Assembly (NCBI RefSeq): GCF_031312595.1
Contig: NZ_CP133592.1
Coordinates: 1,674,001 to 1,738,000, forward strand
Source of the DNA: Methanolobus sediminis
GTDB taxonomy: Archaea > Halobacteriota > Methanosarcinia > Methanosarcinales > Methanosarcinaceae
Length of the DNA: 64,000 nt
Direction: 5' to 3'
Shown here: piece after piece, positions 17,180 to 18,124 of the stretch
How positions within the stretch are numbered: position 1 is the stretch's first letter
Layout: each line of letters starts with the position of its first letter
Notes under the pieces: generated by a model
What the model saw: the letters and a program-made list of their open reading frames with translations, nothing else
The model's database searches: none
Told to the model about the DNA's origin: nothing
Position numbers and translations under genes: made by a program

Positions 17180-17372
17180 AACATGCGTATTGTTAGGTCC
17201 TTGCATGAGAGCATGGCAGAGCCTATCTGTGATTGTACAGACAACCTCAATACGTAACACACTGGATAGTGCGATAAAGCCTGTCACGAGGGAAACTGGG
17301 AAGGACAGCGGAAAATCCAATAGGATGATCTCCCGGAGTTAGTGCGCCAGACGACAGCATTATCCTTCTTTT
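17180..17372 (+). ncRNA. Unassigned structured RNA candidate
   Basis: A 190-base non-coding stretch, less AT-rich than its flanks, folds into two domains by hand. Domain 1 is closed by TGCGTATTG (17184-17192) with CAATACGTA (17248-17256), with an inner hairpin TCTGT/ACAGA (17226-17241). Domain 2 is closed by GGATAGTGC (17264-17272) with GCATTATCC (17357-17365), containing CTGGGA/TCCCGG (17296-17301 with 17331-17336) and the ATCC-AATA-GGAT hairpin. A TATA box precedes it and a TTCTTTT run follows. ACA directly after the 9-bp domain 1 stem recalls archaeal H/ACA guides, but no clear pocket was found. It does not match RNase P, SRP RNA or known riboswitches as I know them. Confidence 0.5.
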
Positions 17373-17756: not shown

Positions 17757-17858
17757 TATTAATGTTCCTGCATTGTATTTCAGTTCTCGGAATACTTTCA
17801 CCTCGCTTGCCTCCCCTTAATATATGCAGAGGACAATCTAGTATCTGAGGTGAAATAC

Positions 17859-17939
17859 ATGGATGAATATTTCGACAACCTGGTAGAAAGAGCATACTAC
17901 TATGAACAGTTTGATCAATTCGTTCGCTATTACAAGTAA
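17859..17939 (+). CDS. 26-aa aromatic-rich small protein
   Basis: A 26-codon frame starts at an ATG five bases after a strong GAGGTGA site (17847-17853), with a TATA-like CTTAATATATGC at 17817-17827. The peptide holds six Tyr and three Phe (ERAYYYEQF in the middle, VRYYK at the end) plus many acidic residues, and has no membrane segment. Its last four codons lie in the 5' arm of a long inverted repeat (17927-18021). The promoter-SD-ORF-hairpin layout argues that it is expressed. It is either a microprotein or a leader peptide. The gene downstream (TOPRIM protein) has no link to aromatic amino acids. Confidence 0.55.
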   Translation: MDEYFDNLVERAYYYEQFDQFVRYYK

Positions 17940-18021
17940 ATTTATCATGTCCTGTCGTAACGATTCCCTCCCAATCCCAAAATGTTTGCTTTCGATTGCG
18001 ACAGGTCTTTACTTGTAATAG
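17927..18021 (+). terminator. Long two-part hairpin ending the 26-aa gene
   Basis: CTATTACAAGTAAA (17927-17940) pairs perfectly with TTTACTTGTAATAG (18008-18021). Inside it, CCTGTCG (17951-17957) pairs with CGACAGG (17999-18005). The asymmetric bulge is 10 bases on one side and 2 on the other. The apical loop contains CCCTCCC. A T-rich stretch follows (18022-18035). It may be a terminator, a processed RNA or a mobile-element relic; terminator is my first choice. Confidence 0.5.
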
Positions 18022-18124
18022 TTATCTCTTTTTAAATTCTGTTTTGTTTCATGTTTTCAAAGGTCATTCTTTAATCAAATGAAAGGTAATTTAAATCCTG
18101 TTTAACAATACTTTTAAATTCTGG

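Follow-up and report, generated by a model that had tools for sequence, protein, structure and literature searches.

Layout of the locus

The window, a stretch of 64,000 nucleotides of Methanolobus sediminis contig NZ_CP133592.1, contains on its forward strand a microgene of 26 codons that lies between an upstream gene of the DUF167 type and a downstream gene of the TOPRIM type, as we take these neighbours to be from reading their sequences. A preliminary description had pointed to a TATA-like element, a GAGGTGA site, an ATG and a 26-codon frame with nine aromatic residues, with a stop codon in the 5′ arm of a long perfect inverted repeat and T-rich DNA after the repeat, and all of these are present. 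The promoter box sits just 5′ of the interval considered there and was overlooked. The features, all on the + strand, are as follows.

17793-17809, +: damage-type promoter box TACTTTCACCTCGCTTG, with no mismatch to the pattern TACTTTCACnnnGCTYR; repair genes carry the same box at the same spacing
17817-17825, +: TATA element TTAATATAT, about 8 nt 3′ of the box, at a spacing fixed in homologues
17847-17853, +: Shine-Dalgarno (SD) sequence GAGGTGA, kept across the genus
17859-17939, +: microgene, 26 codons (MDEYFDNLVERAYYYEQFDQFVRYYK) and TAA, found in 27/27 genus genomes with dN/dS of about 0.10
17927-18021, +: 3′ hairpin, supported by shuffles and compensatory changes, whose 5′ arm takes in the final codons together with TAA
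17966-17978, +: C-rich loop CCCTCCCAATCCC, unpaired and conserved; most genus loci show it, and other genera have similar loops
18022-18035, +: T-rich stretch, the probable transcript end as read from the sequence

The start codon occupies 17859-17861 and the stop codon 17937-17939; the aromatic residues of the peptide are six Tyr and three Phe. From the position of the TATA element, the transcript is predicted to start at or just 5′ of the SD.

A conserved and unannotated microprotein gene

The preliminary description had made its reading depend on the peptide being conserved in related genomes, and it is conserved. A six-frame peptide search of 60 genomes (27 Methanolobus, 10 others of the same family and 23 from other families of the order) recovered the microprotein at full length, with 65-100% identity and without an internal stop, in all 27 Methanolobus genomes, and also in 8 of the 10 other genomes of the family, with none in the 23 genomes from other families. 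Methanolobus vulcani PL 12/M encodes the identical peptide. Among the 27 genus copies there are 20 different peptides, encoded by 24 different sequences, with no frame break in any copy; they give a mean dN/dS of 0.105 (mean dN 0.10, dS 0.98; 241 of 276 pairs, the other 35 being undefined). The third codon position is the most variable, at 0.30 differences per site against 0.10 and 0.11 for the others, and the remaining forward frames are closed (+1 in 25/27 copies, +2 in 27/27). On these comparisons, we conclude with high confidence that these 26 codons form a genuine gene under purifying selection.

A scan of named genomes yielded 53 microgene loci in Methanolobus, Methanococcoides, Methanohalobium, Methanosarcina, Methanomethylovorans, ANME-3-type genomes and Methanimicrococcus, and the constant core of the peptide is L..RA.YYEQF. 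One genome, G030, has five microgene copies (L031-L035), four of them with the box. Box-less paralogues of 42-52 residues with a G-rich SD occur mostly in Methanosarcina (L036, 1464-1622 on the minus strand; L133, L136, L138, L143, L158 and L161); L030 and L036 are a single place listed twice.

The microprotein is acidic, with a net charge of -3, and rich in charged residues. It is probably helical: AlphaFold, run on the single sequence of a 52-residue box-less paralogue from G036, returned one long helix (mean pLDDT 89, pTM 0.54), while an amphipathic pattern at 100 degrees was not above shuffles in the peptide. Family searches gave no match in Pfam, NCBIfam, PHROGs or the PDB, and no family match points to a target. 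By eye, the peptide does not fit a PCNA-box or FxxA-type motif. Identity with sP26 of M. mazei, the partner of GlnA1, is unsupported on a comparison of length alone (sP26 has 23 residues), and a viral origin or spread of the microgene found no support, with none of 15 pattern stretches confirmed. Our confidence in any particular target is low.

A promoter box shared with repair genes

The box consists of TACTTTCAC, three free positions and GCT(T/C)(A/G), followed by eight free positions and the TATA element. Among the 27 genus copies of the microgene, 24 carry it exactly and three with one mismatch; the pattern from box to TATA ends 36-37 nt before the ATG in every copy, and ACTTTCAC stands at fixed spacing, with at most one mismatch, in 27/27. 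A box with at most one mismatch lies 34-38 nt before the ATG in 41 of the 53 named loci, a count that leaves out L039 (its contig is shared with L170, which is included) and L041 (39% identity and no start codon, likely spurious). The 12 named loci without the box include the box-less lineage, mostly Methanosarcina, and two Methanimicrococcus records that have no start codon directly before the core.

Scanning the organism's own genome at up to two mismatches returned 14 box sites, whose assignment to genes leaves out L068 and L069. These sites precede the genes for Hef, UvrA, RPA, RecQ and a radical-SAM DNA repair protein (best match TIGR03916, below the cut-off), all with the spacing seen at the microgene, as well as a tyrosine recombinase together with an apparent degenerate copy of the recombinase start, a nucleoside deoxyribosyltransferase, a BglII-family endonuclease, a 159-residue unknown protein, the microgene itself and a conserved small RNA. 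The box before RadA and XseA, again at that spacing, departs from the full pattern at three positions. Since allowing three mismatches yields 29 sites against 19 for a reversed control, weight can be given to the best sites only. Five genomes from other genera gave, at up to two mismatches, 27 sites against six for the reversed control: eight copies of the microgene, eight genes of repair or recombination (two each for Hef and DNA polymerase IV, one each for the radical-SAM protein, RadA, RPA and a XerA-like recombinase), two of the small RNA and nine other or unassigned. In genome G028, seven box sites and no control site were found, the seven being those of the microgene, Hef, the radical-SAM protein, RadA, RPA, DNA polymerase IV and the small RNA.

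As an independent test, we scored the DNA 5′ of radA and hef, with proC as a control, in 30 loci each. At up to three mismatches, the box was present before radA in 28/30 loci, with one further locus at four mismatches and one that could not be judged at a contig end; six of the 30 belong to other families in the order, and five of these six carry it. Before hef it was found in all 25 genus loci and in none of the five loci of other families, a result that we count against our main reading. The control proC had the box in 1/30 loci, and first-order shuffles of these regions came within three mismatches in 2 (radA), 3 (hef) and 0 (proC) of 600 cases. Given this distribution of sites, we have good confidence that the box marks a regulon common to the microgene and repair genes.

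The small RNA is a second box-driven transcript (G000:C1:1379336-1379465, minus strand; loci L065/L268, also L112 and L108). It is conserved and structured, has an exposed ATCCCCTC stretch, was found in 22 of the 25 genus genomes tested and in two other genera, and has a fold z of -4.5 in the L112 copy. An orc1/cdc6 gene is found some 2 kb away. The box itself is absent before both own-genome Orc1/Cdc6 genes above the family cut-off, and Orc1/Cdc6 as an autoregulated controller was rejected, as neither paralogue has the box.

The 3′ hairpin

The hairpin had been described as 14+7 bp. The outer repeat bears this out, with 17927-17940 and 18008-18021 pairing at 14/14 positions and the stop codon in the left arm; the inner repeat, 17951-17960 with 17996-18005, is paired at 9/10 positions, seven of them contiguous (CCTGTCG/CGACAGG). 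The stability of the hairpin has z = -7.9, and none of 200 shuffles was as stable. A MAFFT alignment of 24 of the 27 genus hairpins (without L012, L018 and L024) put the inner stem in the wrong place in some eight rows, and stems were therefore counted by their arms in all 27 genus hairpins and L028. Among these 28 sequences, one inner-stem pair switches between U-A (15) and C-G (13), and the middle base of the stop codon takes part in an A-U pair in 10, a G-U pair in 7 and a G-C pair in 11. The best outer-stem match is 10/10 in 12 sequences, 9 in 4, 8 in 11 and 7 in 1, the shorter ones not being singly significant, and it lies off the expected place in L019, L023 and L028. RNAalifold, on 27 rows, recovered the inner stem only. 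In Rfam, no family reached its gathering score in the window, and a search of seven loci with E values allowed up to 1 brought none of relevance. The 3′ arm reads ACTTTCACTTGT in L010, L012, L020-L022 and L025-L027 and resembles the first half of the promoter box, which may be a coincidence arising from pairing with the stop codon region or may be a second binding site.

Similar hairpins with C-rich loops lie 3′ of the microgene in Methanococcoides, Methanohalobium and ANME-3-type loci. No hairpin was seen in the loci inspected in Methanosarcina and Methanomethylovorans, which encode a longer peptide and keep both peptide and box. As peptide and box remain in loci where no hairpin was seen, they appear to be the common module, with the hairpin gained or lost. 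The suggestion that CCCTCCC in the loop (17966-17972) could pair with the microgene's own SD is not supported: it depends on a 4-bp core, CCUC/GAGG, and in the 25 of 27 genus loci with a parsable loop the duplex energies were not clearly better than those of shuffled SD regions, 14-86% of which were as good or better.

Neighbouring genes

Both neighbours are kept in all 27 genus loci. In loci from other genera, the DUF167-type gene is present in 5/54 and the TOPRIM-type gene in 4/54. A separate block at 17183-17364, 5′ of the DUF167-type gene, has matches of 79-95% identity at all 27 genus microgene loci and at five loci of other genera (best match per locus, self excluded). It has no Rfam match worth naming and a fold z of only -1.3, and is possibly a new RNA.

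Discussion

We believe it likely that this locus is a stand-alone gene for a small, acidic and probably helical microprotein, whose promoter box belongs to an SOS-like DNA-damage regulon of the Methanosarcinaceae and related families. With its own promoter and SD, a peptide under purifying selection, and a hairpin and T-rich end at its 3′ side, the locus supports the short, complete transcription unit envisaged in the preliminary description. The best reading is that it would be a DNA-damage-induced microprotein gene, the archaeal counterpart of the bacterial SOS microproteins. That damage induces it is suggested by gene content and motif similarity, and we hold this with moderate confidence. 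On the other side of the balance we place, besides the hef loci of other families, the nine sites in other genera with neither a repair gene nor the microgene or small RNA, the reversed-control background, the box-less paralogue, and a peptide in which neither an amphipathic pattern nor a family match hints at a target.

We propose the following model. Upon DNA damage, a putative regulator would work at the box jointly with TBP and TFB bound to the TATA element. Transcription would give a short mRNA whose leader is very short; this mRNA would be translated, and the microprotein would bind a replication, recombination or cell division protein, holding or tuning its partner during repair. In Methanolobus and several sister genera, the hairpin with its C-rich loop would end the mRNA, probably stabilising or terminating the transcript, and the loop may serve as an anti-SD RNA. 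A bolder version, which we regard as doubtful, makes the most constant small member of the regulon a dedicated checkpoint microprotein (core L..RA.YYEQF) that stops division or replication once DNA is damaged, from an mRNA that in many genera is dual-function, its hairpin silencing target mRNAs, with the second box RNA acting alongside.

Other accounts of the locus have to be weighed against the damage-induced microprotein. Nine aromatic residues in 26 codons and a hairpin at the stop codon had suggested a leader peptide of the attenuator type, controlling the downstream gene through the sensing of aromatic amino acids. Such a leader is expected to conserve composition, not sequence, and to stay with its biosynthetic operon. 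Here it is the sequence that is conserved, and the downstream gene is, as read from its sequence, of the TOPRIM type and not of an aromatic pathway; because that gene is mostly absent downstream in other genera while the box and the core stay, we reject the attenuator, to which we give next to no probability. A non-coding regulatory RNA in which the short frame is incidental would account for the strong hairpin overlapping the stop codon, but it is highly improbable given that the peptide is under purifying selection and persists where the hairpin is lost. Small size, a damage-type promoter, several copies in G030 and a stable mRNA structure would also suit a small toxin, induced by damage and belonging to a type I-like pair, comparable with TisB; an acidic, charge-rich peptide is unlike a membrane toxin, however, and we consider this very unlikely.

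A possible reading, if not the expected one, is that of a dual-function RNA whose hairpin exposes CCCUCC/AUCCC and blocks the SD sites of other mRNAs. It is compatible with the microprotein gene that we favour, and the compensatory changes, the conserved C-rich loop, the similar loops 3′ of the gene in three other groups and the exposed stretch of the second box-driven RNA all speak for it, whereas the loci that keep peptide and box with no hairpin seen speak against it, as do the unsupported pairing with the own SD and the finding of no target. The remaining alternative concerns the box, which might mark a replication or cell cycle programme, growth-phase dependent or constitutive, with the microprotein as a cell-cycle factor. 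RPA, RadA and Hef have roles at replication forks as well, and our literature search found no induction data for methanosarcinal box genes. Nonetheless, UvrA, the radical-SAM repair gene and DNA polymerase IV belong to repair or tolerance, both Orc1/Cdc6 paralogues are without the box, and the related Halobacterium motif is found in UV-B-induced promoters, as described in the part of that study considered here (PMC2556686); we think this programme unlikely.

How DNA repair is switched on after damage is largely open for archaea outside Sulfolobus. A fixed box common to radA, hef, uvrA, RPA, recQ and a microprotein is a directly testable regulon and a bait for its regulator, and the partner of the microprotein may be an archaeal checkpoint. 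Annotation misses such genes owing to their small size.

Comparison with known systems

Bacterial SOS responses induce microproteins such as SidA, SulA, DinI and TisB. The microprotein resembles these as a tiny protein co-regulated with repair genes; unlike theirs, its promoter is archaeal, and we know of no sequence relation between them. Archaeal small-protein transcripts studied under nitrogen regulation are likewise short, encode conserved small proteins and in some cases include regulatory RNA parts, but those respond to nitrogen, and neither "DNA damage" nor "DNA repair" occurs in the main text of the paper on them. Our literature search, with subscription papers and supplements outside its scope, found no description of this box or of a methanogen damage regulon.

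The nearest relatives of the box are two damage-related elements of other archaea. In Sulfolobus, the parts of the reports considered here describe a damage response element, A(N)TTTC, that is bound by Orc1-2 at -44 to -39 (PMC5817253, PMC9738581). The box shares with this element, which controls the damage response, the ACTTTC core in the same orientation 5′ of BRE/TATA (PMC5817253, PMC9738581). In contrast to that element, ACTTTC here starts 24 nt before the T of TATA, some 10 nt (an estimated helical turn) further out, and so does not fall at -44 to -39 as judged from the TATA position with a predicted transcript start. Membership of the Sulfolobus regulon would also call for an Orc1 paralogue with the element in its own promoter, and neither of the two Orc1/Cdc6 genes here has the box.

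In Halobacterium sp. NRC-1, the UV-B-induced genes radA1, top6B, vng17 and vng280 have a common TTTCACTTTCA 5′ of the TATA box, radA1 being the most strongly induced of them, and similar motifs precede radA of other haloarchaea and Methanospirillum, according to the part of the study considered here (PMC2556686), in whose text no microprotein family of this kind appears. The full 11-mer is absent at the microgene promoter. The box has in common with the Halobacterium motif the sequence ACTTTCA, its position 5′ of TATA and its occurrence before radA (PMC2556686), and here too one and the same motif stands before radA and other repair genes of a single genome. Unlike the motif as presented in that part of the study, the Methanosarcinaceae box includes a further conserved half, GCTTR, whose spacing is fixed, and it precedes many more repair genes (PMC2556686).
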